This document shows, in pieces, positions 6,810 through 28,788 of a stretch of 64,000 nt of DNA; the first letter of the stretch is position 1, and the number at the start of each line of letters is the position of its first letter. The notes beneath the pieces are model-generated. The model was given only the letters and a program-made list of their open reading frames with translations, had not been told where the DNA came from and searched no databases. The stretch covers positions 186,001 to 250,000 of the forward strand of contig NZ_JADKYS010000002.1 in NCBI RefSeq assembly GCF_015354345.1, given 5' to 3'. Both the position numbers and the translations under genes were made by a program. The stretch is from Methylophilus sp. 14 (GTDB lineage Bacteria > Pseudomonadota > Gammaproteobacteria > Burkholderiales > Methylophilaceae).

Positions 6810-6829
6810 CGTGCGAAATTCCAAAGATA

Positions 6830-6845
6830 GTTACAATTTTGTAAC
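6830..6845. promoter_or_regulatory. Palindromic operator-like site GTTACAA-TT-TTGTAAC
   Basis: A perfect 7-bp inverted repeat with a 2-bp spacer ends 20 bp upstream of the ATG of the TPR-dioxygenase gene. A second TTACAAT occurs 20 bp away at 6851. The core TGTAAC resembles the repeat found upstream of xoxF and fdsG, but here it is arranged as a palindrome. Confidence 0.45.
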
Positions 6846-6954
6846 ACATCTTACAATTCTGCAATGCTTGTGTGACTTGATTTAGCGCAAAACGCTGCGG
6901 ATCTATACTGTTGCCGGGCGGTTTATGCGGTGCTGGATGGCCCAAATGTATTTT

Positions 6955-9283: not shown

Positions 9284-9305
9284 ATTTGTAACTAATTTGT
9301 AACTA
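9284..9305 (+). repeat. Perfect tandem 11-bp repeat ATTTGTAACTA before xoxF promoter
   Basis: ATTTGTAACTA occurs twice head to tail (9284-9294 and 9295-9305), ending 5 bp before the predicted -35. One helical turn per unit and placement around -40 to -60 are what an activator site would show. The core TGTAACTA-N3-TGTAACTA recurs at 23757 before fdsG. Confidence 0.7.
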
Positions 9306-9310
9306 AACTG

Positions 9311-9339
9311 TTGCAATTGAAAACAAATTGTTCTATATT
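9311..9339 (+). promoter_or_regulatory. Predicted sigma-70 promoter of xoxF
   Basis: TTGCAA (9311-9316), a 17-bp spacer and TATATT (9334-9339). Transcription would start near 9346, about 158 bases upstream of the ATG. Confidence 0.55.
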
Positions 9340-9503
9340 GCAATCCTCACATGCGGCAAGTGATAAATTCTAAGTGCAGTCAGGAGTTTTTCCCTTGTCT
9401 CTGGTGTGTATAGTGTGCGTTAAATTTGGTTGTGCTAATCCTGGTGTTGGCGAAATTTACGTGTACTTATATTAAACCCTTAGTATTAACTTTGGAGATC
9501 AAT

Positions 9504-11369
9504 ATGCAAGTTAACAAAATCAAATTGGCCTTGGGTCTGGTGGCAGCATTGCCTATGGTTGCTTTTGCAGCCGCTGACCAAGAAGCCGCAATGAAAGATG
9601 CCAATAACTGGGTTCATCCACGTGGTCAACATGACAACGCTGGTTACAGCTCATTGGCACAAATCAACAAAGGCAACGTTAAAAACCTGAAAGCTGCCTG
9701 GACATTCGCAACCGGTGTAAACCGTGGTCACGAAGGTTCTCCAGTGGTTGTGGGCAACATGATGTATGTTCACACAGCTTTCCCAAACAACGTGTACGCG
9801 TTGGATCTGAACGACAATCAAAAAATCGTTTGGTCCTATTTCCCTAAACAAGACCCAAGCGTTCAAGCAGTTCTGTGCTGTGACAACGTTTCTCGTGGTC
9901 TGGGCTACGGCGACGGTAAAATCTTCCTGCAACAAAACGACGGTATGTTGGTTGCTTTAGATGCAAAAACCGGTGCTAAAGTTTGGGATGTTAAAAACAC
10001 TGATCCAAAAGTTGGTGCAACTAACACTAACGCGCCACACGTGATCAAAGACAAAGTATTGACCGGTTGCTCAGGTGCTGAGTTCGGCGTACGTTGCTTT
10101 ATCGTTGCGTACAACATCAAAGATGGTTCTACTGCATGGAAAGCCTACTCAACAGGCCCAGACAGCGAAATCCTGCATGATGCTAATACCAACAAAGACA
10201 ACCCACAGTACAACGCACTGTCTGTTTATCAAGACGTGAACGGTGGTAACAAACAAGGTGGTTCTTTCAAAAAGATTCCTAACGATCAACTGAAAGTTGG
10301 CGAAAAAGAATTGGGTACACGTACCTGGTTGAAACCACAAGCTGTTAAAGACGGCTGGCAACATGGTGGCGGTTCCGTATGGGGCTGGTGGCCATATGAT
10401 GCACGTACAAACCTGGTTTACTACGGTTCAGGTAACCCATCCGTTTGGAACCCAGATGTACGTCCAGGCGACAACAAATGGTCCATGACTATCACTGCAC
10501 GTGATCTGGATACTGGTGTGGCTCGTTGGGCAATGCAAATGACACCACACGATGAGTGGGACTACGACGGTATTAACGAAGTAATCCTGTTCGACAAAGG
10601 TGGCAAAACATACGCATGGCACCATGACCGTAACGGTTTCATCTACACATGGCAAGCTGGTAACGGTACATTGGTTGCTGCTGAAAAAGTACACCCATTC
10701 GTTAACTGGGCTAACAACGTAGACCTGAAAACAGGTGTGCCAGATAAATTGGCATCTGCTTCTACTCACCAAGACTACAACGCTAAGGGTGTTTGCCCAG
10801 CTGCTTTGGGTACTAAAGACCAACAGCCTGCTGCTTACTCACCAAAAACTGGTTTGATGTACACACCATTGAACCACGTATGTATGACTTACGAGCCAGT
10901 TGAGTCTAAATACGTTGCTGGTCAACCATGGGTTGGTGCGACATTGACTATGTTTGCTGGTCCTGACGGCGTAATGGGTGGCTTCGGCGCTTATGATCCA
11001 ATGACCAACAAAAAAGTGTGGTACAACAAAGAGAAATTCTCTGCATGGGGCGGTGCTCTGACTACAGCTTCTAACATCGTGTTCTACGGTACTTTGGATC
11101 GTTGGTTCAAAGCTGTTGATGCACAAAACGGTAAAGAACTGTGGAAATTCCAAGTTGGTTCCGGCGTGATTGGTAACGCATTCACATACGGTAACAAGGG
11201 TAAACAATACGTTGGCGTACTGTCCGGTATCGGCGGTTGGGCTGGTGTTGCGATGAACTTGGGTATGACCAACGACACAGACGCACTGGGTGCTGCTGGT
11301 GGTTACAAAGAGTTGACCAAGTACAACGCTGCTCCTGGCGGCGGTGCACTGAACGTTTTCTCACTGTAA
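9504..11369 (+). CDS. xoxF: Lanthanide-type PQQ methanol dehydrogenase, XoxF
   Basis: A 621-residue periplasmic quinoprotein that oxidises methanol, passing electrons from PQQ to a c-type cytochrome. The signal peptide spans about residues 1-23 (ending VAFAA). The vicinal Cys125-Cys126 disulphide pair that clamps PQQ is present, as are metal ligands Glu193 (GAEFG) and Asn311 (GSGNP). The catalytic stretch is DEWDYDG: Asp353 is the catalytic base and Asp355 is the extra Asp that marks lanthanide-dependent XoxF; calcium MxaF has Ala there. Tryptophan-docking repeats of the eight-bladed propeller are visible. No mxaI small subunit gene follows, again fitting XoxF; the Methylophilaceae type is usually XoxF4, an inference here. 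Codon use is strongly biased (GGT, AAC, AAA, CCA), as in very highly expressed genes. Downstream are xoxJ and two cytochromes. Confidence 0.95.
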   Translation: MQVNKIKLALGLVAALPMVAFAAADQEAAMKDANNWVHPRGQHDNAGYSSLAQINKGNVKNLKAAWTFATGVNRGHEGSPVVVGNMMYVHTAFPNNVYALDLNDNQKIVWSYFPKQDPSVQAVLCCDNVSRGLGYGDGKIFLQQNDGMLVALDAKTGAKVWDVKNTDPKVGATNTNAPHVIKDKVLTGCSGAEFGVRCFIVAYNIKDGSTAWKAYSTGPDSEILHDANTNKDNPQYNALSVYQDVNGGNKQGGSFKKIPNDQLKVGEKELGTRTWLKPQAVKDGWQHGGGSVWGWWPYDARTNLVYYGSGNPSVWNPDVRPGDNKWSMTITARDLDTGVARWAMQMTPHDEWDYDGINEVILFDKGGKTYAWHHDRNGFIYTWQAGNGTLVAAEKVHPFVNWANNVDLKTGVPDKLASASTHQDYNAKGVCPAALGTKDQQPAAYSPKTGLMYTPLNHVCMTYEPVESKYVAGQPWVGATLTMFAGPDGVMGGFGAYDPMTNKKVWYNKEKFSAWGGALTTASNIVFYGTLDRWFKAVDAQNGKELWKFQVGSGVIGNAFTYGNKGKQYVGVLSGIGGWAGVAMNLGMTNDTDALGAAGGYKELTKYNAAPGGGALNVFSL

Positions 11370-11413
11370 TTTGAGCTAGACTTAAGTTACACGTAGTAAT
11401 ACGTTGACTCCTC

Positions 11414-11443
11414 AACACCCTGCTTCGGCAGGGTGTTTTTTTT
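11414..11443 (+). terminator. Rho-independent terminator of xoxF
   Basis: AACACCCTGC-TTCG-GCAGGGTGTT, a 10-bp stem with a stable UUCG tetraloop followed by a T-run. It sits 45 bp after the xoxF stop, so xoxJ is probably expressed less or separately. Confidence 0.92.
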
Positions 11444-11454
11444 CATGAATATCA

Positions 11455-11474
11455 TGATTCAAAATTATGAATCA
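11455..11474. promoter_or_regulatory. Operator-like palindrome TGATTCA-N6-TGAATCA
   Basis: A perfect 7-bp inverted repeat 140 bp upstream of the xoxJ start, after the xoxF terminator. A further ATGAAT copy lies 10 bp upstream. It could be a dimeric regulator site for xoxJ. Confidence 0.35.
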
Positions 11475-11613
11475 ACAATTAAATAGACTATCTCAACAAA
11501 TGCGTACGTATTCGCGATAAGATTGCTGCGTTTGTCGTGATTTAATCGAACTTTTACCGGTGAACAAGTTCAAAAAACGACAGGAAACAATCACAAATAA
11601 GGATGAAGTTAAA

Positions 11614-12492
11614 ATGAGAACTACATGGAATATACTGGGTGCGTTTGCGATGATGGTAGCCACACAAAGTGTGGTGTTGGCTGAAGAAATTGAAATCCCT
11701 TCTATCAACCCGGATGAAGGCCGCATTGGTGAAGTGCGCCGTGTCGCGGATGAGTCTGAGTTTAAAGTGTGCTCAGACCCTGACAATATGCCTTACTCCA
11801 ACATTAAACTGGAAGGCTTTGAAGATAAAATTGCCAAGGTGCTGGCAGATGACCTTGGTAAAAAGCTGACCTTTCAGTACGCTTATAATCGACAGGGCTT
11901 TTTACGCAATACGATTAATGCCATGCGCTGTGATGTCATCATTGGTATGACTTCCGATTTTGACGGCTTGCGTACCTCTAAACCTTATTATCGCTCAGGC
12001 CATGTGTTTGTCTGGCGTAAAGACAGTAACTACGATATCAGCAACTGGGACTCTCCAGACTTGAAAAAAGGCATTATTGGCATTGTAGGTCAGAGTCCTG
12101 CCACCATTCCTTTGAATGATCACAATTTAATGACCAATGCGCGCCCTTACCGTATGCAGCGTGACCTGAATTTGCCAACCAGTTTTATGATTGATGATCT
12201 GGTGAAAGGTGATATTGATGTCGCCATTATGTGGGGCCCGATTGCAGGTTATTATGCCAAGCAATCTAAAGTGCCATTGGAAGTGCGCATGATTCCAGAG
12301 TACAACAAGGTCAACCTCAAAGGTAAGGAGTACTGGAACATCTCCGTGGCGGTGCGTATGAAAGACAAAGATCGTATTAAGATGATCAATGAGGCGCTGG
12401 AGCGCAATAAAGACAAGATTGATGCGATCCTGAAAGATTACGGTATTCCAACTGTACCGGTGGTTGAAGGCGACAGTGTGTATAAAAAATAA
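11614..12492 (+). CDS. xoxJ: XoxJ/MxaJ-like periplasmic binding protein
   Basis: A 292-residue secreted protein of the quinoprotein-dehydrogenase-associated solute-binding family (the MxaJ/XoxJ group within SBP_bac_3). A signal peptide (residues 1-23, ending VVLA) precedes FKVCSDPDNMPYSN, the characteristic start of the binding-protein fold in this group. Further on are ADDLGKKLTFQYAYNRQGFLRNT and DLVKGDIDVAIMWGPIAGYYA. XoxJ is encoded beside xoxF in most methylotrophs and has been proposed to help activate or assemble the dehydrogenase; it is not known to serve an ABC transporter, and none is nearby. The ATG at 11614 has AAGGA upstream; earlier in-frame codons would put the signal peptide inside the chain. 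Confidence 0.9.
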   Translation: MRTTWNILGAFAMMVATQSVVLAEEIEIPSINPDEGRIGEVRRVADESEFKVCSDPDNMPYSNIKLEGFEDKIAKVLADDLGKKLTFQYAYNRQGFLRNTINAMRCDVIIGMTSDFDGLRTSKPYYRSGHVFVWRKDSNYDISNWDSPDLKKGIIGIVGQSPATIPLNDHNLMTNARPYRMQRDLNLPTSFMIDDLVKGDIDVAIMWGPIAGYYAKQSKVPLEVRMIPEYNKVNLKGKEYWNISVAVRMKDKDRIKMINEALERNKDKIDAILKDYGIPTVPVVEGDSVYKK

Positions 12493-12647
12493 CACTCATG
12501 GTGAAAAAGTTTTAAAAACAGGCAGTTGCTAATGACAAGGTAAAAGAAACACAGTAGAATCGTGGCCTTGTTTTGAGATGGCTCAGTGAATTATTCTGTA
12601 ATTTAATTCGGAAATATTCGTCAACCGTTTCTGGAACGATTCGTTAA

Positions 12648-12695
12648 ATGAGCATACGTTAATATTGGTTGGGTCTTGATGTTAACGTCGCTCAT
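12648..12695 (+). other. Long inverted repeat upstream of the first cytochrome gene
   Basis: ATGAGC-ATA-CGTTAA (12648-12662) pairs with TTAACG-TC-GCTCAT (12682-12695) around a 19-base loop, giving a 12-bp stem with a small internal loop. TTTTGTTT follows, then the ribosome binding site (AGGAG) of the cytochrome gene. It could be an attenuator, an mRNA-stabilising 5' hairpin or a DNA operator. Confidence 0.5.
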
Positions 12696-12718
12696 TTTGT
12701 TTAGGATTAGGAGAAAAC

Positions 12719-13201
12719 ATGTTAGGCAACACATTTAAATCAGCATTGTTGATTTCCTTGATGGCTTTTGCCACAGGTGCGATGGCTGATATCACTTTTT
12801 CAGCTACTCAAGACGGCTCAACCCTCAACATCGACAAAGCAATGTTCGATACAGATGCTTCAAAAGAGTTTTTAGCGACTGGTAAAAACCCTTACATCGG
12901 TAACGAAGAAGCCATTAAAAAAGGCAAAAAAATCTTCAATCTGTACTCTTGCGTTGCCTGTCACGGTGGTAAAGGTGAAGGCGCTGTAGGTCCAGGCTTG
13001 ATCGGTGCAAACTTCCGTTATGCGAAAAACGCAACTAACAAAGGGATGTTTGAAACAATCTGGCACGGTACTAACGGTGGTATGGGTGCTAAAGGCTTTG
13101 GCTTGATGGCTCCAGATGATGGTATCAAACCAGACGAACTGCTGAAAGTGATTGCTTTCATTCGTAGCAATAGCAACGTAGGCATGACAGGTAACGAATA
13201 A
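12719..13201 (+). CDS. xoxG: XoxG-like periplasmic c-type cytochrome
   Basis: A 160-residue soluble cytochrome c, the probable electron acceptor of XoxF. A signal peptide of 23 residues ends in AMA; one haem site Cys78-Val-Ala-Cys81-His82 is present. The later region GGMGAKGFGLMAPDDG offers Met residues for the sixth ligand, as in cytochrome cL. AMFDTDASKEFLATGKNPY before the haem resembles the N-terminal extension of cytochrome cL/XoxG proteins. Position after xoxF and xoxJ supports the role; which of the two tandem cytochromes is the true XoxF partner cannot be told from sequence. The ATG at 12719 has AGGAG 6 bases upstream. A strong terminator follows immediately. Confidence 0.88.
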   Translation: MLGNTFKSALLISLMAFATGAMADITFSATQDGSTLNIDKAMFDTDASKEFLATGKNPYIGNEEAIKKGKKIFNLYSCVACHGGKGEGAVGPGLIGANFRYAKNATNKGMFETIWHGTNGGMGAKGFGLMAPDDGIKPDELLKVIAFIRSNSNVGMTGNE

Positions 13202-13215
13202 TTCGTTACGAATAA

Positions 13216-13248
13216 AAACGGTCACTGAGGTGACCGTTTTTTGTTTTT
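13216..13248 (+). terminator. Rho-independent terminator after first cytochrome gene
   Basis: AAACGGTCAC-TGAG-GTGACCGTTT followed by TTTGTTTTT; a 10-bp stem. The two cytochrome genes are thus separated transcriptionally, at least in part. Confidence 0.92.
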
Positions 13249-13342
13249 GTGGCACAATAAATGCAGTCGGTTTCATTATAAAAAACAATTAAAAACCGTT
13301 TTATTTCAAAGAACATGGATCTTAGGAAAGATGGGGGTAATC

Positions 13343-13855
13343 ATGAGAAGTATGCTTTTAACAACGCTGCTTGCCGCAATGTTGGCAGCCTGTAATAACG
13401 GTGGCCAATCTGGTGCGGCAGCGGATGCCGGCGGTGGTGATATCAAGGCGATTCAGTTTGTGACAACACAAGATGGTCAGCCGATGGAAATTGACCAGAA
13501 AATGTTTGATACACCAGCCGCAAAAGAATTTTTGGCGACGGGTAAAAACCCTTATATCGGCAACGAAGAGGCCATTAAAGAAGGTAAGAAAAGATTTAAC
13601 CTGTTCTCTTGTGTGGCTTGCCACGGTGGTCATGGAGAAGGGGCCGTTGGTCCAGGCTTGATTGGTGAGAATTTCCGCTATGCCAAGAATGCGACTAACA
13701 AAGGCATGTTCGAAACCATTTGGCATGGTACCAATGGTGGGATGGGGGCCAAAGGATTTGGCTTGATGGCGCCGGATGATGGTTTGAAACCGGATGACGT
13801 GTTGAAAGTCATCGCCTTTATTCGTAGTCATGCCAAAATCACTGGTAACGAATAA
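13343..13855 (+). CDS. c-type cytochrome lipoprotein, paralogue of the upstream XoxG-like protein
   Basis: A 170-residue cytochrome c. Residues 1-17 are a lipoprotein signal peptide with lipobox Leu14-Ala-Ala-Cys17, so the protein should be membrane-tethered. After a Gly/Ala-rich linker (residues 18-32), the rest is closely similar to the preceding cytochrome over its full length: KEFLATGKNPYIGNEEAIK, haem site Cys90-Val-Ala-Cys93-His94, then GVGPGLIG-like and GGMGAKGFGLMAPDDG segments. This is a local duplication in which one copy stayed soluble and the other gained an anchor. Asn at +2 does not signal inner-membrane retention, so outer-membrane sorting is possible. Start at 13343 is chosen because GGGGG lies 6-10 bases upstream and it gives a compact lipoprotein signal; the ATG at 13331 is an alternative. 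Confidence 0.87.
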   Translation: MRSMLLTTLLAAMLAACNNGGQSGAAADAGGGDIKAIQFVTTQDGQPMEIDQKMFDTPAAKEFLATGKNPYIGNEEAIKEGKKRFNLFSCVACHGGHGEGAVGPGLIGENFRYAKNATNKGMFETIWHGTNGGMGAKGFGLMAPDDGLKPDDVLKVIAFIRSHAKITGNE

Positions 13856-13875
13856 CGGTATAATTGAGATGTTGT

Positions 13876-13908
13876 GCGCGCTTGGCAGTACGGCAGGCGC
13901 GCTTTTTT
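13876..13908 (+). terminator. Rho-independent terminator between cytochrome and ndh
   Basis: GCGCGCTTG pairs with CAGGCGCGC (one G-U) around a short loop, followed by TTTTTT. It ends 15 bp before the ndh GTG start, so any ndh promoter must lie within or before it, or ndh relies on read-through. Confidence 0.75.
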
Positions 13909-13923
13909 ATTGAAGGATTAAGC

Positions 13924-15255
13924 GTGAGCGTAACAGACGAAAATGATTTGCACCATGTCATCATTGTGGGTGGTGGTGCTGGTGGCCTGGAGTTGGCAAC
14001 CAAACTGGGCGATTCTCTGGGTAAAAAGAAAAAGGCCAGAATTACGCTGATTGATGCTACCAGAACCCATGTATGGAAGCCATTGCTGCATGAGATTGCA
14101 GCGGGCAGCATGGACCCTGATCGTCATGAGCTGGAGTATCTGGCACAAGCGCACTGGCATCATTTCAAGTTCCGTCTGGGCCGCATGGATGGCCTGAACC
14201 GTAGCACACGTGAAGTGCTGCTGGCGCCCGTGCATGATGAAGATGGTAACGAGATTATTGCACGTCGTTCCTTCAAGTACGATACCTTGATTATTGCCGT
14301 CGGTAGTACGACCAATGACTTTGGGATCAAGGGTGCACGCGAGTTCTCAATTGCGCTGGACACCCAGTCACAAGCACAGAAGTTCCACCGTTATCTGCAC
14401 AATGCCCTGTTGCGTGCACAAACGCAGCCTGAGCCACTCAAACCAGGTCAACTGGAAGTGGCGATTGTGGGTGCAGGTGCCACCGGGGTTGAGCTGGCTG
14501 CAGAATTGCATAATACGACGCGTGAATTGGCGGCGTATGGCCTGGATAAGATTGACGCGGACCGCGATGTGAAAATCTCGCTGATCGAAGCCAGTGACCG
14601 CATTTTGCCTGCGTTACCGCCTAAATTGTCCTATGCCGTAGACGTTGAGTTGCGTAAGCTGCGTGTCAATGTGTTTACCGGGGAACGTGTGACTGAGGTG
14701 TCGTCCAAAGGCATTACGACGCACAGTGGTCGTACCATTCCCGCTGAATTGGTGGTGTGGGCTGCAGGCATTAAGGCGCCAGATTTCCTGAAGGATATTG
14801 ATGGCCTGGAAACTAACCGTATCAACCAGTTGGTGGTGAATCAGCACTTGCAAACCACACGTGACGAGAACATTTTCGCCTTTGGTGACTGTGCAGCTTG
14901 CCCATGGTTGGGACACGATACAACCGTGCCACCACGCGCACAAGCTGCGCACCAGCAGTCTTCGTTGCTGGTTAAAACGGTTAAGGCACGTGTGGCTGGT
15001 AAAGCACAGTTGCCAGAGTTCCACTATACCGATTACGGTTCATTGGTGAACCTGGGTAAATACTCTACCGTTGGTAGCCTGATGGGCGCTGTCGCCGGTG
15101 GCAGCATGTATATTCAGGGCCTGTTTGCACGCGTGATGTATCGTTCGTTGTACAAAATGCACTTGATGGCCTTGCACGGCATCATGGCGGTGATTGTGCA
15201 TACGATTGGACGCATTATCTCCAGACGTACTGAGCCGCATGTGAAACTGCACTAA
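13924..15255 (+). CDS. ndh: Type II NADH dehydrogenase (NDH-2)
   Basis: A 443-residue FAD enzyme that oxidises NADH and reduces quinone at the inner membrane without pumping protons. The FAD-binding motif GGGAGGLELATKLG is near residue 15 and the NAD-binding motif GAGATGVELAAEL is near 185. FAFGDCAACP is the second FAD contact. The C-terminal 60 residues (GSLMGAVAGGS, YRSLYKMHLMALHG) match the amphipathic membrane-binding end of NDH-2. The start is GTG 13924 with AAGGA 7 bases upstream; extending to 13864 would run through the terminator hairpin. Placing it next to the xox genes suggests a role in balancing NADH made by formate oxidation. Confidence 0.92.
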   Translation: MSVTDENDLHHVIIVGGGAGGLELATKLGDSLGKKKKARITLIDATRTHVWKPLLHEIAAGSMDPDRHELEYLAQAHWHHFKFRLGRMDGLNRSTREVLLAPVHDEDGNEIIARRSFKYDTLIIAVGSTTNDFGIKGAREFSIALDTQSQAQKFHRYLHNALLRAQTQPEPLKPGQLEVAIVGAGATGVELAAELHNTTRELAAYGLDKIDADRDVKISLIEASDRILPALPPKLSYAVDVELRKLRVNVFTGERVTEVSSKGITTHSGRTIPAELVVWAAGIKAPDFLKDIDGLETNRINQLVVNQHLQTTRDENIFAFGDCAACPWLGHDTTVPPRAQAAHQQSSLLVKTVKARVAGKAQLPEFHYTDYGSLVNLGKYSTVGSLMGAVAGGSMYIQGLFARVMYRSLYKMHLMALHGIMAVIVHTIGRIISRRTEPHVKLH

Positions 15256-15266
15256 GTGATGGCAAT

Positions 15267-15293
15267 AAAAAAGGCGCTTCAAGCGCCTTTTTT
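15267..15293. terminator. Bidirectional terminator between ndh and lplT
   Basis: AAAAAAGGCGC-TTCAA-GCGCCTTTTTT: the stem is flanked by an A-run and a T-run, so it can end transcription of the convergent genes on both strands. Confidence 0.92.
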
Positions 15294-15312
15294 ATTGGGA
15301 GTGTGTTTAAGA

Positions 15313-16479: not shown

Positions 16480-16499
16480 CACATTCAAGCAGACTGCGT

Positions 16500-17894
16500 C
16501 TACAGGACCTCGGCTGCAAAATCTGCCAGGCGTGAGCGTTCGCCACGCACCAGGGTGATATGGCCATTATGCGACCAGTTCTTGAAGCGATCGACCACAT
16601 ACGTCAGGCCTGAGCTACCCTCGGTCAGGTAGGGGGTATCGATCTGCGCGATGTTGCCTAAACAAACGACTTTGGTGCCTGGGCCTGCGCGTGTAATCAA
16701 GGTCTTCATTTGTTTGGGTGTAAGGTTTTGCGCTTCATCAATAATTAAAAACTTGTTGAGGAAGGTGCGGCCGCGCATAAAGTTCAGTGACTTGATTTTA
16801 ATGCGTGTGCGGATTAAGTCCTGGGTCGCTGCGCGTCCCCACTCGCCCACATCCTCATCCGTTTTATTCAACACATCCAGGTTATCTTCCAGCGCGCCCA
16901 TCCATGGCGCCATTTTCTCTTCTTCAGTGCCTGGCAAAAAGCCGATGTCTTCACCGACCGGCACGGTGACGCGCGTCATGATGATTTCCGAGTAGCGCTT
17001 TTTATCCAGTGTTTGTGTCAGCGCGGCAGCCAGTGTCAGCAGGGTTTTACCAGTACCCGCCTGGCCGAGCAACGTGACAAAATCAATGTCAGGATCCATC
17101 AGCAAGTTCAAGGCAAAGTTCTGCTCACGGTTACGTGCCGTAATGCCCCACACGCTGTGTTTGGGGTTCTGGTGATCATGCACCACTTCCAGCACGGCGG
17201 AATTATCTTCTATTTTGCGTACGATGGCATGGAACGGTTTGTTATATTCATAAAACACAAATTCGTTCACCAGCAGGGATTTGACAACTGGGCCGCTGAT
17301 TTTATAAAACATGCGTCCTGACTCTTGCCAGGAGTCCATGTCCTTGCTGTGTGTTTCCCAAAAGTCTTCCGGCAGTTCGCGCAGGCCGGTGTACAGCATG
17401 TCGCTGTCTTCCAGCACCTTGTCATTGAAGTAGTCTTCAGATGGCACGCCCATGGCACGGGCTTTAATGCGGATATTGATATCCTTGCTGACCAGGATGA
17501 CGTTGCGTTTGGCAAACTGTTTTTTCAGGGACAGGGCGACGCTGATGATCTGGTTATCCGCCTTGCTGCCTGCCAGGCCCGGCAGGTCCGTTGGCACATG
17601 TTCCATCTGGAAAAACAGCTTGCCGGTCAGGTGGCGATTGCCCTGAATGCCCAGTGGACAGCCTTCTTCCAGTTTGTCGGTATCTATGCTGCCGATGATT
17701 TCTTCCAGAAAGCGGCTGGCCTGACGGGCATTGCGGGCGACTTCAGTCAGCCCTTTTTTGTTGTTGTCTAGTTCCTCCAGTGTCACCATTGGCAAATAGA
17801 CATCGTGCTCTTCAAATCTGAACAGCGACGACGGGTCGTGCATCAGAACGTTGGTATCAAGAACAAACAGCTTGGTGTGTGGAGCACGGGCCAT
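16500..17894 (-). CDS. PhoH family ATPase with N-terminal PIN domain
   Basis: A 464-residue cytoplasmic protein of the PhoH2 (YlaK) type. Residues 8 to about 150 are a PIN ribonuclease domain with acidic residues in place (VLDTNVLMHDP, LEELD, SKADNQII, SKDINIR). Residues about 250-460 are the PhoH ATPase with Walker A GQAGTGKT and Walker B FLIIDEAQN. PIN-PhoH proteins act as RNA helicase/ribonucleases, some as toxins of toxin-antitoxin pairs, but no antitoxin-sized gene adjoins this one. It stands between bcp and lplT, 12 bp from bcp. Length and domain order are normal. Confidence 0.92.
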   Translation of the reverse strand: MARAPHTKLFVLDTNVLMHDPSSLFRFEEHDVYLPMVTLEELDNNKKGLTEVARNARQASRFLEEIIGSIDTDKLEEGCPLGIQGNRHLTGKLFFQMEHVPTDLPGLAGSKADNQIISVALSLKKQFAKRNVILVSKDINIRIKARAMGVPSEDYFNDKVLEDSDMLYTGLRELPEDFWETHSKDMDSWQESGRMFYKISGPVVKSLLVNEFVFYEYNKPFHAIVRKIEDNSAVLEVVHDHQNPKHSVWGITARNREQNFALNLLMDPDIDFVTLLGQAGTGKTLLTLAAALTQTLDKKRYSEIIMTRVTVPVGEDIGFLPGTEEEKMAPWMGALEDNLDVLNKTDEDVGEWGRAATQDLIRTRIKIKSLNFMRGRTFLNKFLIIDEAQNLTPKQMKTLITRAGPGTKVVCLGNIAQIDTPYLTEGSSGLTYVVDRFKNWSHNGHITLVRGERSRLADFAAEVL

Positions 17895-17906
17895 AGAAAA
17901 TCACTT

Positions 17907-18377
17907 TTATGAGTGGGAAGACTGAATGCTGGCATATACCTCAGCGGCATGACCATCCACTTTGACACCACGCCATTCACGGACAATGATGCCTTGTGGA
18001 TTGACCAGGAATGTACTGCGTTCAATGCCACGTACCTGTTTTCCGTACATGTTTTTCATTTTAATGACGTTGAATGCCTGACAGGCGATTTCTTCACTGT
18101 CAGAAATCAGCTCAAATGGAAACGTGTACTTGGCTTTGAAATTTTCGTGTGATTTCAGGCTGTCGCGTGAAATGCCAAAGACCACGGCATTGGCTGCAGC
18201 AAACTGTTCATGCATATCGCGAAACTGCATGCCTTGGGTCGTACAGCCGGGCGTGGCGTCTTTGGGGTAAAAATAGAGAACGAGAAACTTACCTAAATAG
18301 TCTTTGCTATTAAATTGCAGGCCGGAGGTGGCCGGTAAGGAGAGTTCTGGAACAGGTGAATTCAACATAGTAGTCAT
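17907..18377 (-). CDS. bcp: Thioredoxin-dependent peroxiredoxin, BCP family
   Basis: A 156-residue cytoplasmic peroxidase that reduces hydrogen peroxide and organic peroxides. The BCP/PrxQ active site YFYPKDATPGCTTQGMQFRD is clear, with the peroxidatic Cys in PGCT. The usual resolving Cys five residues later (PGCTxEAxxFRD-C in many members) is absent: the residue is Gln/Gly here, so it may work as a 1-Cys type or resolve via another Cys (Cys in EEIACQAFNV). ERSTFLVNPQGII is also typical. The ATG at 18377 is chosen; GTG 18386 and ATG 18368 are alternatives. First gene of bcp-phoH-lplT. Confidence 0.9.
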   Translation of the reverse strand: MTTMLNSPVPELSLPATSGLQFNSKDYLGKFLVLYFYPKDATPGCTTQGMQFRDMHEQFAAANAVVFGISRDSLKSHENFKAKYTFPFELISDSEEIACQAFNVIKMKNMYGKQVRGIERSTFLVNPQGIIVREWRGVKVDGHAAEVYASIQSSHS

Positions 18378-18438
18378 GACAATCACTTAATCACATTGTT
18401 GATAAAAATACAAAATTAAGCAAGCACAAAAACGCAAA

Positions 18439-19920
18439 TTACTGCGGTAATGTAATGGTGATGCGGGTGCCTGCCCCTGCTTTGCTGTCAAAGGTCATGG
18501 CGCCGCCAAGTTCTTCGCAAACCTTAAAGGCAAACGGGATGCCCAGGCCAGTGCCAAAGCGTTTGGTGGTTGGCCCTGGGGTTAATGCATGTGGGTCTGG
18601 TTTAAACGGCATGCCAGGCCCCTGATCCGTGATGACCAGGGTCAGCAGGTTGTTCGCCAATCCACATTGAAGATGAATCTCCTCGCCTTTTGGTGAGGCT
18701 TCCGAAGCGTTTAGAAGCAGGTTGTACAGCATTTGTTCCAGCAAGTGTTCATCCGTCAGCACTAAACGTTTGATGACCGCGCTATTTTCAATCACCCTGA
18801 TCTGTTTTTCATCCAGTTTGGGCTGCAAGGTTGAGATCGCGCCCTGCACAATAGATGAAAGCAATAACTGGTTGAGCATGGGCTTGATCGGGTGCAGATA
18901 AGACAGCAGGCTGCCTGTCCAACGCTCCAGCCTGTCCACTGTGTGGATAATGCCTTGAATTGACTCTAATGTGTCTTTGTCTAGCAGCGGGTCATCAATC
19001 ACTTGTGCGGTGGCGCGTATGCTGGCCAGCGGATTACGGATATTATGCGCCAGCATGGGCACCAGCAGGCCGAGCGCTGCCTGCTTTTCACTTTTAACCA
19101 GCGCATCGCGGCTGGCGGCCAGGTCTTCGGCCATTTTATTAATTTCTCTCGACAGCACCGCTAACTCTTCTGCGCCAGCCTCAGGTACCTGATGGATCAG
19201 GTTGCCAGTACTGATGGCATTGGTGGCCTGCATGATGTCATTAATGGGTCGCACGATAGAGTCTTTGAGGATGCGACGTGAATATACAATCAGAATACAG
19301 GCCAGCAACAACGGCAGAGAAAGCACGGCAATCGAGTTGCTTCTGGCATCGTCCAGCCGATGTTTGATTTCGCCCTGTTTGATCATGAGCAAGAGCTCGG
19401 CACGCTTGGAGACCTCTTCATAATGCCTGAAAATGCCGGTTTCAATGTCCTGGTAGATGGATTTTTGCGCTTTGCGATCCGGGTTGTTTTGGTAGCGGTA
19501 AAACAGGGCGGGTGCTTCATTGACCAGGCTGCGGTATTTACGCTCAATCTCCATCAGCGCTTCACGTTCTTCCTGGTCGATGGCAATTTTCTGCAGGCGA
19601 TCCAGATGTTCCAGAATGGCAGAGGTATATTGATTGTATTCGTATAACGCATTTTCTTCCTGTAGAAAAAACGCATCGAACAATTCTTTGGTTTGGCGGT
19701 AGAGATCGCCGCGAACCAGATAAATTTCCTGAATCACAAAATTAATCCGTTGTGATTGCTTGGAGGCCTTGTCCCACAGATAAATGCCATAAGCACCACT
19801 GGCCACAGCGAGGACTATGAGGGCAATAAAGTACAAGTCATGAAACAGCAGCAGTAGCCTGAGCGGCTTGTCGTGGGCACTTTGAGCAGATGCCGCAGAT
19901 GATGAGCGCTTGAACAGCAT
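18439..19920 (-). CDS. Membrane sensor histidine kinase, orphan
   Basis: A 493-residue two-component kinase. The first membrane helix is at about 28-48, followed by a helical periplasmic region of about 145 residues and a second helix near 195-215. Then come HAMP, a HisKA domain with the phospho-acceptor His292 in LAHNIRNPLASIRAT, and HATPase_c with N-box NLLLNASEASP, G1 DQGPGMPF and G2 GTGLGIPFAF. This resembles the NtrB-like HisKA group. No response regulator gene adjoins it. The ATG lies only 2 bp after the tonB stop, so the two are co-transcribed, an unusual pair that hints the kinase senses something linked to TonB-dependent uptake or envelope state (inference). Confidence 0.9.
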   Translation of the reverse strand: MLFKRSSSAASAQSAHDKPLRLLLLFHDLYFIALIVLAVASGAYGIYLWDKASKQSQRINFVIQEIYLVRGDLYRQTKELFDAFFLQEENALYEYNQYTSAILEHLDRLQKIAIDQEEREALMEIERKYRSLVNEAPALFYRYQNNPDRKAQKSIYQDIETGIFRHYEEVSKRAELLLMIKQGEIKHRLDDARSNSIAVLSLPLLLACILIVYSRRILKDSIVRPINDIMQATNAISTGNLIHQVPEAGAEELAVLSREINKMAEDLAASRDALVKSEKQAALGLLVPMLAHNIRNPLASIRATAQVIDDPLLDKDTLESIQGIIHTVDRLERWTGSLLSYLHPIKPMLNQLLLSSIVQGAISTLQPKLDEKQIRVIENSAVIKRLVLTDEHLLEQMLYNLLLNASEASPKGEEIHLQCGLANNLLTLVITDQGPGMPFKPDPHALTPGPTTKRFGTGLGIPFAFKVCEELGGAMTFDSKAGAGTRITITLPQ

Positions 19921-19922
19921 CG

Positions 19923-20738
19923 CTAGTTACTGACCAGTTTGAAACTGACCGGGACATTGGTGGATTTTAACCTGCCACGCAAAATATCGTTAAACAGCGA
20001 TTTTAGCTGCGATTTGGTGACCGTGGCGATGGCGGCATCATCCAGCGCCTTGTTGCCACTGGATTCGATGACTTCGATGCTGATCACATTGCCATGGTCA
20101 TCAAAGGTAATGTGCAGATTGGTGACCCCTTCAATCCCGCGGTCCATGGCGATCCTGGGGTAGCGCAGATTTTTTTGGATTTCACGCTGGGCTGCGGCTT
20201 TAAATGCATTGCGCGCCGCTTCAATATCGCCCTCACTCGGGCCGCTAGGCTTGGCTGGTTCTGCTGGCGGCGCTGGCGGAGCGGGGGGCACAACTACCTC
20301 GGGTTTGGCTTCACTGGCCGATGGTTTAGCTGCAATCACCGGGGGCGCTGGGGACTCAACGACCGGGTGAGGTGATTCTGTCGCGTGCTCAGGCTTTTGC
20401 GGCACGACGGGCTTGGGTTCCAGCGGTTTTTGTTCTATGGGCCTGGGCTCAGCTTTTGGCTGAACAGGTTGCTGCTTGGGGGGCTGTGGTGTTGGTGGGG
20501 CTGGCTCCGGCGGCGTTGGCGCAGGCACGGTGACGGCGGGAGGCTCTTCTTTCACCAGTTCAATCTGGATTTCCTGCTTTTTTGGTGGCGGCAGGTCGTA
20601 GTCAGGTTTGGGGAGCGTAAACATGATCGCAGCATGTATCAGCAGCGATGCGATCAGGCACCACTCTATGACATGATTGAACTGTTTAGACTCTTTTAAC
20701 ACGGCTTGCACGCCAACACCTTTATGATTAACGCCCAC
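19923..20738 (-). CDS. tonB: TonB family energy-transducing protein
   Basis: A 271-residue inner-membrane-anchored protein. There is one N-terminal helix at about 25-45 (VIEWCLIASLLIHAAIMF), with the SxxxH-like SLLIH motif used for contact with ExbB/ExbD. A long Pro-rich spacer follows (residues 50-175, many PEP, PKP and PPAPPA). The C-terminal TonB domain reads NLRYPRIAMDRGIEGVTNLHITFDDHGNVISIEVIESSG with the YP motif. It links the proton motive force to outer-membrane receptors. exbB/exbD are not adjacent. A histidine kinase follows at 2 bp. No TonB-dependent receptor is in the window. Confidence 0.9.
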   Translation of the reverse strand: MGVNHKGVGVQAVLKESKQFNHVIEWCLIASLLIHAAIMFTLPKPDYDLPPPKKQEIQIELVKEEPPAVTVPAPTPPEPAPPTPQPPKQQPVQPKAEPRPIEQKPLEPKPVVPQKPEHATESPHPVVESPAPPVIAAKPSASEAKPEVVVPPAPPAPPAEPAKPSGPSEGDIEAARNAFKAAAQREIQKNLRYPRIAMDRGIEGVTNLHITFDDHGNVISIEVIESSGNKALDDAAIATVTKSQLKSLFNDILRGRLKSTNVPVSFKLVSN

Positions 20739-20798
20739 TGCGAGCCGACACTATAAGCTATTTTTTATGATTCATGCCAGCGTGCGCAGAAGGTGAGG

Positions 20799-22064
20799 TT
20801 AGCAAATACCGCTAAATGGTTGTACTTCAACCAATGTGCCAGCGGCCAGTGCGCTGGTTTTGTCATCCAGCACAATAAAGCAATTGGCCTGGCTCATGCT
20901 GCTCAAAATCCCCGAGCCTTGCTCGCCGGTGGTTTTCACTTTCCAGGCGTCACCTTCTTTGAATAAGATGCCACGCTGGAACTCAGTCCGCCCCGGGGCC
21001 TTTTTAATCGGGCTGACACACTCGACCTTGAAGCAGGGTTGTGCCAGTGTATTCGTTCCCATCAGGTGTTTGAGCGCCGTTTGGACAAACTGGTAAAAGG
21101 TCACCATGGTAGAGACCGGGTTGCCGGGTAAGCCAAAATAATGCGCCTGGCCGATTTTGCCATAGGCCAGCGGGCGGCCCGGTTTCATATTGATTTTCCA
21201 GAATAAAACCTGGCCGTGTGTGGCCAGCAGTTGTTTCATAAAGTCAGCCTCGCCTACCGAAACGCCGCCACTGGTAATCACCACGTCATGTTCTGCTGCC
21301 GCTGCTAGCAAGGTTTTTTCAAGCGCAGCGGGGTCATCGGCGACATTGCCCAGATCATGCATGTCTACACCCAAGGCTTGTAACATGCCCCACAGGCTAT
21401 AGCGGTTGCTGTCGTAAATCTGGCCAGTCTGCAATGGCTGCCCCACACTGACCAGCTCATCGCCGGTGCTGAAAAAAGCCACTTTCAGGCGGCGGTAGAC
21501 TTGAATCTCGGCAATGCCTAACGATGCGAGCAGGCCCATGTCTGCCGGTTGTATTTGGTGGCCGCGCGCCAGCACGGTTTGCCCGGTGGCGATGTCTTCA
21601 CCAGTCAGGCGGATATTAGCTCCCAGTGCCGGGATTTTGAGCAGGCTGACACTTTCGCCCTCAACCGCGGTATGTTCCTGCATGACGACGGTATCCACAC
21701 CGGCTGGAATCACTGCGCCGGTCATGATTTTGACGCAAGCGCCTGCCGGTAACTCACCTGTAAATGGATTGCCCGCAAATGCGGTGCCGATGATTTTCAA
21801 CGGTTGCGTGGCTTCTGCATGTCTAAAAGCAAAGCCGTCCATGGCCGAGTTGTCGTGCCCTGGCACATTCATGCCTGAGGTCACCGAAGTTGATAATATG
21901 CGTCCCAGCGCGTGCCTGATGTGAGTGGTCTCGGTGTCTTGGACCGGCGACAAGAATTGCTGGATATACTGGCGCGCTTGCGTCACCGACATGGCATTCG
22001 GGTCATAGTCATCTGCGCAGGAAGGATTGCTGGCCAGTTGTTGCAAAAGGGCTTGGTTAGTCAT
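20799..22064 (-). CDS. moeA: Molybdopterin molybdenumtransferase MoeA
   Basis: A 421-residue cytoplasmic enzyme that inserts molybdate into adenylylated molybdopterin. Typical MoeA features: RILSTSVTSGMNVPGHDNSAMDGFA near the start, TGAVIPAGVDTVVMQEH, FFSTGDELV, VITSGGVSVGEADFMK and GLPGNPVSTMVTF. Third gene of the moaA-mobA-moeA unit. The ATG at 22064 overlaps the mobA end by 8 bp (ATGACTAA); the upstream in-frame start at 22112 would overlap mobA by 56 bp and is less likely. Confidence 0.93.
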   Translation of the reverse strand: MTNQALLQQLASNPSCADDYDPNAMSVTQARQYIQQFLSPVQDTETTHIRHALGRILSTSVTSGMNVPGHDNSAMDGFAFRHAEATQPLKIIGTAFAGNPFTGELPAGACVKIMTGAVIPAGVDTVVMQEHTAVEGESVSLLKIPALGANIRLTGEDIATGQTVLARGHQIQPADMGLLASLGIAEIQVYRRLKVAFFSTGDELVSVGQPLQTGQIYDSNRYSLWGMLQALGVDMHDLGNVADDPAALEKTLLAAAAEHDVVITSGGVSVGEADFMKQLLATHGQVLFWKINMKPGRPLAYGKIGQAHYFGLPGNPVSTMVTFYQFVQTALKHLMGTNTLAQPCFKVECVSPIKKAPGRTEFQRGILFKEGDAWKVKTTGEQGSGILSSMSQANCFIVLDDKTSALAAGTLVEVQPFSGIC

Positions 22065-22653
22065 GATGGCTGGGGTGATGGTTGATGTTAGTAAATGCTT
22101 GCTCATCTTCAAAGCTCACAAATACGTGGGGGTGCTGCGCTTGCCAGGCGCTGACTTTGCGCTGGCCTTGTGCCAGGAATGCATCAAGGTCTGCGCTTAA
22201 TTGTCGTGGCATTAGGCAAAATACCGGATGCGTGGCACCGTCGCTGCGTGCAATAGCCAGCATGGTGAGGGTGTTGTTAATCGCCGCGGCGTCACGGATT
22301 GCATGGCACAGCCGACTCACCAAATCCAGTGGCAGCAATGGTGAGTCGCAAGGGACGCTGAGTATCCAGTCTGTGGTGGCGTGATGCATGCCTGCTTGCA
22401 TGCCAGCCAGCGGGCCGTCAAAATGGTCGTTGGCATCTGTGATCACCGGCACGCCAAACTGCTGGTATTGTTCCAGATGGCGGTTTGCATTGATGATGAC
22501 ATGATCCACTTGTGGTTGTATGCGCTCCAGCACATGCGCGACCATAGGTTTATGCGGCTCATTGGGCTTGTCTTGATAATTGACCAGGCCTTTGTCAGCA
22601 CCGCCCATGCGCATGCCGCGCCCACCGGCCAGTATCACTGCGGTAATCTGCAT
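22057..22653 (-). CDS. mobA: Molybdenum cofactor guanylyltransferase MobA
   Basis: A 198-residue nucleotidyltransferase that adds GMP to Mo-molybdopterin, giving the MGD form that the DMSO-reductase family needs, including the formate dehydrogenase encoded next door. The GTP-binding signature LAGGRGMRMGGADKGL is at the N-terminus, with VPCDSPLLP (metal-binding Asp) later. Its ATG overlaps the moaA stop by one base (TAATG). Confidence 0.93.
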   Translation of the reverse strand: MQITAVILAGGRGMRMGGADKGLVNYQDKPNEPHKPMVAHVLERIQPQVDHVIINANRHLEQYQQFGVPVITDANDHFDGPLAGMQAGMHHATTDWILSVPCDSPLLPLDLVSRLCHAIRDAAAINNTLTMLAIARSDGATHPVFCLMPRQLSADLDAFLAQGQRKVSAWQAQHPHVFVSFEDEQAFTNINHHPSHHD

Positions 22654-23663
22654 TAACCACCCGTATGCGACATAAAGCGCACGACCGCCGGTGCCGCACG
22701 CCTTAAATCAAAGTCGTGCCCTTCGGGTTTGATGCGCATACCATGCAAAATAGCATCGACCAAAGGCTGGTCGTCGTCAGGATGCGCGCGCAGGAGTGGC
22801 AGCAAATTGACTTGATGGTCTTGCCCCAGGCACAGGAAGAGTTCGCCCTGGCAGGTGATGCGCACGCGGTTGCAGCTCTCACAGAAATTATGGCTGTGGG
22901 GTGAGATAAAGCCAATTCTGGTTCGCGCGCCATTGACCTGCCAATAACGCGCAGGACCGCCTGTCCTGTGCGTGCTAGGCGTGAGTGAGAACTTACTTTT
23001 TAGCAAGGCGAGTGTTTCGGTATTGCTGACACAGCTTTGTTCGCGGTTATGATCGACAGCGCCTAGCGGCATCTCTTCAATAAAGCTGATGTCGACCTGT
23101 TTTTCAATCGCAAAGTTCACCAGGGCTTCGGCTTCATCGTCGTTGATGCCACGCATCAGCACCGTATTGATCTTAATATTGTCAAAGCCTGCAGACCTGG
23201 CTGCATCCAACCCGGTGAGCACTTTTGATAATTCGCCCACGCGGGTGATGGTTTTAAAACGGTGTTCTTGCAGGCTGTCGATAGAGATATTGATGCGTTT
23301 GACGCCTGCCGTTTTCAGTGCCACGGCATATTTATCCAGTTGGCTGCCATTGGTGGTGAGTACGCACTCATCCAGCCCTGGCAAATGGCCGATTTCTTCG
23401 AACAGCCACATGGCGTTTTTGCGTACCAAAGGTTCACCACCGGTAATGCGAACTTTACGCACGCCCATACGGACAAATAGTTTAACGAGGCGTGCACATT
23501 CTTCCAGTGACAACACGGCATCGCGCGGCAGGAAAGTCATGTCTTCTGCCATGCAGTATTGGCAACGGAAATCACAACGATCAGTGATCGACAGGCGAAT
23601 ATAGTCCACCCGCCGACCAAACTGGTCGATCAATTGTGAAGGAATGTTCGCAATGGTTTGCAT
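22653..23663 (-). CDS. moaA: GTP 3',8-cyclase MoaA
   Basis: A 336-residue radical SAM enzyme catalysing the first step of molybdopterin synthesis. The N-terminal radical SAM cluster site CDFRCQYCM and SAM-binding TGGEPLV are clear. The C-terminal second [4Fe-4S] site starts with CESCNRVRITCQGELFLC, and the chain ends in Gly-Gly, which MoaA needs for activity with MoaC. First gene of a leftward moaA-mobA-moeA operon. It is divergent from fdsG, with 130 bp holding both promoters. Confidence 0.95.
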   Translation of the reverse strand: MQTIANIPSQLIDQFGRRVDYIRLSITDRCDFRCQYCMAEDMTFLPRDAVLSLEECARLVKLFVRMGVRKVRITGGEPLVRKNAMWLFEEIGHLPGLDECVLTTNGSQLDKYAVALKTAGVKRINISIDSLQEHRFKTITRVGELSKVLTGLDAARSAGFDNIKINTVLMRGINDDEAEALVNFAIEKQVDISFIEEMPLGAVDHNREQSCVSNTETLALLKSKFSLTPSTHRTGGPARYWQVNGARTRIGFISPHSHNFCESCNRVRITCQGELFLCLGQDHQVNLLPLLRAHPDDDQPLVDAILHGMRIKPEGHDFDLRRAAPAVVRFMSHTGG

Positions 23664-23692
23664 GACGGTATCAAGGTCTAAAAGTAATTCGT

Positions 23693-23720
23693 ATTTTATG
23701 CCCTTTTTAGGCTTTCACAA
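23693..23720 (-). promoter_or_regulatory. Predicted moaA promoter
   Basis: On the minus strand TTGTGA (23720-23715), a 16-bp spacer and TAAAAT (23698-23693). The -35 element overlaps that of the divergent fds promoter. Confidence 0.5.
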
Positions 23721-23728
23721 GGCATAAA
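23695..23728. promoter_or_regulatory. Inverted repeat TTTATGCC-N18-GGCATAAA
   Basis: Perfect 8-bp arms (23695-23702 and 23721-23728) span the shared -35 region of the divergent moaA and fds promoters, a natural place for one regulator controlling both. Confidence 0.45.
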
Positions 23729-23741
23729 TAGAGGATATGAT
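23714..23741 (+). promoter_or_regulatory. Predicted fds operon promoter
   Basis: TTCACA (23714-23719), a 16-bp spacer and TATGAT (23736-23741); start near 23748. Confidence 0.45.
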
Positions 23742-23756
23742 TCGAGGGTGATGGAA

Positions 23757-23775
23757 TGTAACTAAATTGTAACTA
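23757..23775 (+). repeat. TGTAACTA direct repeat (11-bp period) before fdsG
   Basis: TGTAACTA at 23757-23764 and again at 23768-23775, the same spacing and core as the repeat upstream of xoxF at 9284-9305. Here it falls just after the predicted transcription start and 18 bp before the fdsG start codon. Confidence 0.65.
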
Positions 23776-23793: not shown

Positions 23794-24273
23794 TTGGATA
23801 ACACATTAAGCCATAAGCAACACGCGCAAATTCAGGCGCATATTCAAGCACACCAGCATGTGCCTGGCGGGCTGATGCCTTTGTTGCATGCGATTCAGGA
23901 CGATATCGGCTATGTGCCGGAAACCGTTTATCCGGAGATCGCCAAAGCCCTGGCCCTGTCGGTGGCCGAGGTGCATGGTGTCGTCTCTTTTTACCATCAT
24001 TTCCGTACGCATCCCATCGGCAAGCATGTGCTGCAAATCTGTCGCGCTGAGTCTTGTCAATCCATGGGGTCTGCCAATCTCGAAGCTGATTTGAAAGCAA
24101 AGTTAGGCGTGGATTACCATCAAACCACTGCCGACGGTAACGTGACCTTATTGCCGGTGTATTGTCTGGGCAACTGTGGCTGTTCGCCAGCCGTCATGCT
24201 CGATGATGAAGTCTATGGACGCATGAGTGCCGAAAAAGTCGCTGATTTAATCACCGAGGTGTGCCATGGTTAA
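23794..24273 (+). CDS. fdsG: NAD-dependent formate dehydrogenase gamma subunit FdsG
   Basis: A 159-residue [2Fe-2S] protein of the NuoE/complex I 24-kDa family. The four cluster ligands lie in [10 protein letters not shown] and CLGNCGCSP. It passes electrons within the cytoplasmic FdsABG complex. Translation most likely starts at the TTG at 23794, with GAGG 6 bases upstream; no in-frame ATG lies nearby upstream. Its end overlaps fdsB by 8 bp. First gene of fdsGBA-fdhD-fdsD, divergent from the molybdenum cofactor operon. Confidence 0.93.
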
Positions 24274-28773: not shown

Positions 28774-28788
28774 TGGCAGTTGAACTTG

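Follow-up and report, generated by a model that had tools for sequence, protein, structure and literature searches.

Tandem TGTAAC repeats before xoxF, formate dehydrogenase and cytochrome oxidase genes of Methylophilus as probable OmpR/RisA boxes

We analyzed a 64,000-nucleotide stretch of Methylophilus sp. 14 (contig NZ_JADKYS010000002.1, positions 186,001 to 250,000; hereafter, the window), in which two direct repeats with an 11-bp period precede xoxF, the gene for the lanthanide-type methanol dehydrogenase, and fdsG, the gene for the gamma subunit of an NAD-dependent formate dehydrogenase. These repeats are very probably boxes of an OmpR/EnvZ (RisA/RisS) two-component system, and, judging from sequence comparisons, we put at about 0.85 the probability that this system controls methanol oxidation and respiration genes in Methylophilaceae. 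In the mechanism that we propose, OmpR would bind as a tandem dimer to two TGTAAC half-sites one helical turn apart. To judge by position, OmpR would activate xoxF and ompR, where the box closely precedes the promoter, and would repress or roadblock the formate dehydrogenase (fds) and cytochrome oxidase (cox) genes, where the box closely follows the predicted -10; alternatively, the box at fds might act on the divergent moaA gene. The regulator protein is probably a known one, and its regulon is probably new.

Sites in the window and across the genus

Tandem repeats with an 11-bp period had been described at both loci in an earlier note made from the letters of the window, and direct re-reading confirmed them: TGTAACTA-N3-TGTAACTA is exact at 9287-9305 (xoxF) and at 23757-23775 (fdsG/moaA). 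These are the only exact copies of the 19-mer in the genome of this strain (3,015,369 bases), which holds one further site with one mismatch and two with two mismatches. The site with one mismatch precedes a DUF2244-like gene and coxB (cytochrome c oxidase subunit II). One of the two-mismatch sites lies in the window itself, on the minus strand at 6828-6846, so that the claim of the earlier note that the window held no other such pair has to be corrected. The other precedes, by about 145 bp, a gene for an OmpR-type response regulator, behind which comes an EnvZ-type kinase gene. The names DUF2244, coxB, fabA, moxR, hppA, dnaJ, rplL, rpoB, pip and ABC transporter are our own assignments, presumed from the sequences.

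When up to three mismatches in the 19-mer were allowed, the window contained four matches, including the stretch 9298-9316 with its TGTTGC half-site, whereas 100 dinucleotide shuffles gave 0.19 on average and always fewer than four. At the same threshold, there was no excess in the whole genome of the strain, with 29 matches in all versus 34 for the reversed control (the same pattern reversed and counted in the same genomes); thus, only close matches are informative. The core TGTAACNNANTTGTAAC, with at most one mismatch, was found 146 times versus 30 for the control in 22 genomes of the genus, and nine times versus once in the genome of the strain, and this excess lies in the 16 genomes of Methylophilus proper. 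The frequency of the motif, which the earlier note had proposed to compare to chance, is accordingly at the chance level for the loose 19-mer and well above it for the core.

Orthologous sites were compared in nine Methylophilus genomes, namely that of the strain and eight that we chose, leaving out the matches of seven further Methylophilus genomes. Sites before xoxF, fdsG/moaA and an ABC transporter gene were found in all nine, sites at cox, fabA/moxR and dnaJ in eight, and sites at ompR and at a gene for a tetratricopeptide repeat (TPR) and 2OG-Fe(II) oxygenase protein in seven. A site at hppA (C1:283785 in the genome of the strain) has no counterpart among the compared regions and was therefore left out of the conserved classes. 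The proposition that only two genes carry the box was rejected, given the core matches across the genus and these eight conserved classes. Among 77 site regions, 14 sites are inside an open frame of at least 60 codons, seven of them in classes with intergenic orthologues and seven others, and a coding location of the motif is not borne out. With boxes kept before the orthologous xoxF and fds genes in 9/9 Methylophilus genomes, and before xoxF family-wide, a regulator shared by the two is well supported, as the earlier note had supposed. Its description of the targets as both ends of the methanol oxidation pathway holds insofar as xoxF and fds both carry the box, and is too narrow because cox, ompR, fabA/moxR, the ABC transporter, dnaJ and the TPR gene carry it too.

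A box-like pair also lies about 9-37 bp beside a small conserved gene, the protein of which begins with MQIQVQH or a similar sequence, in five genomes (loci L335, L360, L370, L386, L388). Where read, this pair follows the stop codon, i.e., it is downstream of the gene, unlike the other sites.

Boxes and predicted promoters

The position of the box relative to the promoter was assessed in the best 80 of 258 XoxF relatives in named genomes (Methylophilus, Methylotenera, Methylopumilus, OM43-clade and others). Fifty of these loci were classed as being beside the proline iminopeptidase gene (pip), as in the window, and 28 as lying elsewhere; two were too short and were dropped. A pair with at most two mismatches in 12 bases was present at the expected distance in 47 of the 50 pip-syntenic promoters versus one of 50 for the reversed pattern, the distance window having been chosen after a first look at the xoxF loci. 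In 48 of the 50, TGT[AT]A-N6-TGT[AT]A is accompanied by TTGCAA exactly 24 bp from the start of the pair, and most of these rows have TGTTGC or TATTGC as a third half-site; a single pip-syntenic locus (L195) lacks the box. The xoxF copies away from pip have at least three mismatches in 21 of 28 cases and the pair in seven; five of these seven show the full box with TTGCAA, suggesting that pip may have been overlooked there. Another common upstream element, roughly AGTTACAT, TTAACA or similar, and ATTGAAACA, was observed at the non-syntenic xoxF copies L156, L157, L165, L169 and L170.

The hexamers TTGCAA-N17-TATATT are the only promoter-like match in the upstream region of xoxF, and such scans are weak evidence when taken alone, because one site was found versus 1.4 expected by chance at xoxF, and two versus 0.5 at fds; conservation carries more weight. 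In an alignment of 49 xoxF upstream regions (the window and 48 loci), TGTTGCAATT and TATA are conspicuous besides the pair. It should be noted that the 48 loci were selected for having the pair, so that the alignment can be used as evidence of the -35 and -10 hexamers and not of the pair. A pair with a third half-site beside a poor -35 is the layout expected of an activator of the OmpR/PhoB type, and this putative activator geometry is conserved at xoxF. The arrangement given in the earlier note, with the repeat just before a predicted -35 at xoxF and just past the predicted start site at fds, agrees with the promoter scan at both loci: the repeat is directly upstream of the predicted hexamers at the former and directly downstream of them at the latter (Table 1).

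In the fds/moaA spacer of nine aligned genomes, TATGAT is invariant, and the first hexamer, separated from it by 16 bases, is TTCACA in seven genomes and TTAACA in two. The order is the same in all nine: the promoter hexamers, the box about 15 bp after TATGAT, and the fdsG start. The cox box is invariant in eight aligned genomes, in which no conserved -10 was found behind it at the distance seen at xoxF; the promoter hexamers of cox and ompR were judged by eye. A position past the predicted -10, as at fds and cox, is where a repressor or a roadblock would bind. At fds, this position is conserved, and we infer from it a repressing effect.

Two observations concern the same spacer and its surroundings. 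An inverted repeat, TTTATGCC (23695-23702)-N18-GGCATAAA (23721-23728), spans the overlapping divergent fds/moaA promoters; most of the nine aligned genomes have it in exact or almost exact form, and it is perhaps the site of a second regulator. A histidine kinase gene (18439-19920, minus strand) lies in the moaA-mobA-moeA-tonB cluster divergent from fds, with no response regulator among its scanned neighbours.

Table 1. Boxes, predicted promoters and genes in the window (positions are those of the window; names of fds genes deduced from domain order)
Feature	Position	Strand	Basis or remark
TPR and 2OG-Fe(II) oxygenase gene	5304..6809	-	Pfam; start codon read from sequence
Third box, TGTTACAAAATTGTAACTA	6828..6846	-	18 bp before ATG of the TPR/2OG-Fe(II) oxygenase gene
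xoxF box, TGTAACTAATTTGTAACTA, two TGTAAC half-sites, 11-bp period	9287..9305	+	Pattern search
Third, degenerate half-site TGTTGC, same 11-bp register, overlaps -35	9309..9314	+	Direct reading
Predicted xoxF promoter, TTGCAA-N17-TATATT	9311..9339	+	Promoter scan; both hexamers in conserved alignment blocks
xoxF, lanthanide-type pyrroloquinoline quinone (PQQ) methanol dehydrogenase	9504..11369	+	Pfam PQQ; best named relative 97% identical
moaA, divergent from fdsG; then mobA- and moeA-like genes	22653..23663	-	Pfam
Predicted divergent moaA promoter, TTGTGA-N16-TAAAAT	23693..23720	-	Promoter scan
Predicted fds promoter, TTCACA-N16-TATGAT, upstream of box	23714..23741	+	Promoter scan
fdsG/moaA box, TGTAACTAAATTGTAACTA	23757..23775	+	Pattern search; kept in 9/9 Methylophilus genomes
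fdsG, NAD-dependent formate dehydrogenase gamma subunit	23794..24273	+	Pfam
fdsB, after fdsG	24266..25831		Pfam
fdsA, after fdsG	25852..28773		Pfam
fdhD-like, after fdsG	28780..29700		Pfam

The candidate regulator and its rivals

The response regulator of the strain passes the NCBIfam OmpR model NF007005, with 384.8 bits compared to a cut-off of 331. The closest PDB match of its DNA-binding domain is E. coli OmpR, including the entries 6lxl, 6lxm and 6lxn, which we take to be OmpR-DNA complexes, and the recognition helix is near-identical. The adjoining kinase carries a RisS_PPD periplasmic domain (E 5.7e-35), its PDB matches are RisS/sensor chains, and its score on the EnvZ equivalog model (45.7 of 415) comes from a 202-residue fragment only. 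The ompR gene is itself preceded by a box, whose hexamers are exact in seven genomes of Methylophilus and two of the OM43 type (HTCC2181 and G080). TATAAT follows this box after 29 bp, a spacing kept within about one base in seven genomes and near the 28 bp at xoxF, suggesting autoactivation.

The half-site TGTAAC is GTTACA on the opposite strand, i.e., the published half-site of both OmpR and RisA. Published studies are cited here as represented by excerpts of their text. GTTACA was found in 391 of 430 peaks of RisA chromatin immunoprecipitation sequencing in B. pertussis (PMC11019879), and the E. coli OmpR site is given as GTTACATTTTGTTACAT (PMC5438342). We counted exact TGTAAC pairs by their spacing, and there are at least 145 of them in the genus among the matches listed. 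In Methylophilus proper, 59 are at N5 and 14 at N4 among 111 listed; in a sister clade of six genomes, 18 are at N4, the E. coli spacing, and one at N5 among 34 listed. Pooled over all spacings, exact pairs were not above the reversed control; it is single spacings that are prominent, without a control for each spacing. Of the 18 sister-clade N4 sites, 15 were read: four are before ompR, three before cox, four before rpoB and four elsewhere. In M. aquaticus (G036), an N4 pair precedes ompR too. The combination of the same targets with half-sites at the E. coli spacing in the sister clade is hard to explain without OmpR.

Several N4 pairs lie at other genes. TGTAAC-N4-TGTAAC occurs between rplL-like and rpoB-like genes in four sister-clade genomes (loci L445, L450, L453, L457), a possible link of OmpR to RNA polymerase genes. 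At locus L447 (G048), the same pair is found between genes that, from their sequence, resemble cbb3-oxidase accessory genes, perhaps another respiratory target. In three genomes, it lies between a phoB-like gene and a divergent permease gene (in the strain, C8:354242-354257, which is L458; also L443 and L444), and this position suggests a putative OmpR input to phosphate control.

Genome content points to the same regulator. The eight OM43-type genomes, a label that we use for a group to which HTCC2181 and LSUCC0665 belong, have exactly two Trans_reg_C regulators each, compared to ten in the genome of the strain. One is an OmpR 58-63% identical to that of the strain, with OmpR as the best model in the four that were scanned; the other has PhoB as its best model in 8/8 genomes, over the cut-off in three and 10-17 bits under it in five. 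The core was found 25 times in these eight genomes versus nine times for the control, and the box is present at xoxF in eight, at cox in six and at ompR in two. HTCC2181 has four matches (one in the control), located before xoxF, moaA/fdsG, ompR and proteorhodopsin; at the last of these, TTGCAA stands behind the box as at xoxF, one base closer. Proteorhodopsin was nevertheless rejected as a general target, the upstream box being seen only in HTCC2181: 25 of 31 searched genomes have a rhodopsin match, and, among the loci fetched with enough upstream sequence, no other rhodopsin gene came below four mismatches of 14.

Outside the family, the exact core was found in two of 116 genomes of an order-wide draw (G155, G221), and it was absent from the three other family genomes drawn (G010, G030, G017), suggesting that the regulon is mainly one of Methylophilus and its relatives. 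As far as upstream sequences tell, the xoxF box is the most widespread part of this putative regulon.

A number of results weigh against control by OmpR, or against its reach, besides the absence of the core from those three family genomes. The 19-mer with at most one mismatch occurs in 44 of 150 family genomes and in eight of 24 genera, and the core with at most one mismatch is absent from 4/4 g14 genomes. The N5 core is without excess in the six-genome sister clade (11 versus 12 for the control) and in G125 (five versus five), and seven of the 25 OM43-type matches are at other genes. At 13 of the ompR loci sampled in the sister clade and other genera, the best upstream N5 pair still has three or more hexamer mismatches; an exact N4 pair is present at one of these loci, that of G057. 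The OmpR proteins of the four OM43-type genomes that were scanned fall just short of the OmpR cut-off of 331 (330.1, 324.6, 319.2 and 318.4), the spacing is 11 bp in Methylophilus proper versus 10 bp in E. coli, and two further Methylophilus response regulators are OmpR- or CpxR-like and could share the sites. Finally, a 20-fold change in xoxF transcripts of the OM43 strain NB0046 was accompanied by next to no change in those of formate dehydrogenase, and xoxF and proteorhodopsin were both lower in the nutrient-deplete regime (PMC5120137); as far as the excerpt goes, these transcripts fit a shared control of xoxF and proteorhodopsin, and not of fds.

That another OmpR-family regulator uses the boxes, e.g., the OmpR-like response regulator at C1:975926 or the CpxR-like one at C12:84484, appears decidedly unlikely. 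Both are encoded in the genome of the strain and score 208 bits on the OmpR model and 196 bits on the CpxR model, respectively; the CpxR-like gene has a weak pair (two hexamer mismatches) 116 bp upstream, and the box of WalR/VicR in Firmicutes has the same form, TGTWAH-N5-TGTWAH (PMC4168254). Conversely, the xoxF box is retained in 8/8 OM43-type genomes, which have no regulators of this family left besides OmpR and the PhoB-like one; ompR has a putatively autoregulatory box, and it keeps the half-sites when the spacing changes. Two named regulators of this family were set aside as binders: PhoB, because the boxes are TGTAAC and not the PHO-box half-site TGTCAT, and, provisionally, WalR, because OmpR of the strain scores 189.8 on the YycF/WalR model with a cut-off of 340, with two further response regulators of the strain also below it (three of the ten were scanned). 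Pairs such as TGTCATTAAAATGTCATAT do occur before several phoB-like genes of the family (L199, L206, L202, L211).

The repeat at xoxF abuts the -35 at a fixed distance in 48/50 loci, as would be expected if it belonged to the promoter, e.g., as an extended -35 or UP-like element, and no regulator were dedicated to it. We consider this very improbable, since at fds, and by eye at cox too, the same box lies past the predicted -10, since it occurs in either orientation within the cox cluster, and since spacings near a helical turn (N5 and N4 in the counts above) are the commonest. Chance similarity of two AT-rich intergenic stretches, for which the lack of excess of the loose 19-mer over its reverse in the genome of the strain might speak, is practically negligible in view of the shuffles, the reversed control in 22 genomes and, above all, the conservation before orthologous genes, which already refutes it. 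The suggestion in the earlier note that the regulator may be undescribed is therefore not sustained: from motif, autoregulation, genome content and spacing, it is most probably the known OmpR/RisA.

A secreted protein with EF-hand loops, the first of them often flanked by conserved cysteines, is encoded divergently to ompR (L256:1647-2264; C8, about 569670-570221, in the genome of the strain). In an order-wide draw of 200, six family genomes had a match, and in all six, as at many other family loci, the gene adjoins ompR; the ompR loci where it was not seen have at most 671 bases of sequence on that side. The 24 non-family EF-hand loci that were fetched from this draw showed no OmpR helix in their vicinity. 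The first loop has Asp at position 9 and Glu at position 12 in 10/10 aligned proteins and Pro at position 2, presumably a lanmodulin-like feature, in 1/10, and it is outside the canonical pattern in four of the six family genomes of the draw. It is conceivable, and in our estimate unlikely, that this protein reports calcium or lanthanide to the RisS-type sensor, and that OmpR then raises the lanthanide-dependent xoxF and tunes formate dehydrogenase and the terminal oxidase; a family-specific metal-sensing circuit would then set the methanol flux.

Known systems and implications

Several described systems resemble the one proposed here. RisA/RisS of Bordetella has, as here, the RisS_PPD sensor domain and the motif GTTACA, equal to TGTAAC; its published motif, however, consists of one hexamer, whose copies lie 5 to 180 bp from each other, whereas that of Methylophilaceae is a tandem pair with a period of 10 or 11 bp. 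The putative targets here are methanol oxidation and respiration genes, and the word "cytochrome" is absent from the main texts of two RisA papers. OmpR/EnvZ of Escherichia and Salmonella shares the half-site, the tandem arrangement and the near-identical recognition helix, but its period is 10 bp, compared to 11 bp in Methylophilus proper, where many sites are at energy-metabolism genes. The WalR/VicR box of Firmicutes agrees in half-site form, spacing and response-regulator family, although OmpR of the strain is far below the WalR cut-off. In other methylotrophs, the systems MxbDM, MxcQE and MxaYB likewise exert two-component control over xoxF/mxaF (PMC11845868). In M. flagellatus, two two-component systems were unchanged with lanthanum, and the excerpt of the same paper gives no xoxF regulator for Methylophilaceae.

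In the excerpted text of PMC5874918, OmpR appears solely as the family to which a kinase in a mutation table is assigned, and in that of PMC8879981, EnvZ/OmpR is mentioned solely for chimeric methanol sensors engineered in E. coli. In a marine OM43 methylotroph, xoxF is reported to be always the most abundant transcript (PMC5120137). In the open-licence literature, we found no named xoxF regulator in Methylophilaceae, no work that connects OmpR with xoxF, and none that connects the motif with a Methylophilaceae regulon.

OmpR is best known from osmolarity control. If it is true that OmpR/RisA drives xoxF along with formate dehydrogenase and cytochrome oxidase, an osmolarity regulator would have been rewired into methanol burning, a question that a gene deletion and a purified protein, one of each, could put to the test. 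The shift from 11-bp to 10-bp spacing between neighbouring clades, with the same targets, would be a natural experiment in the evolution of binding sites.

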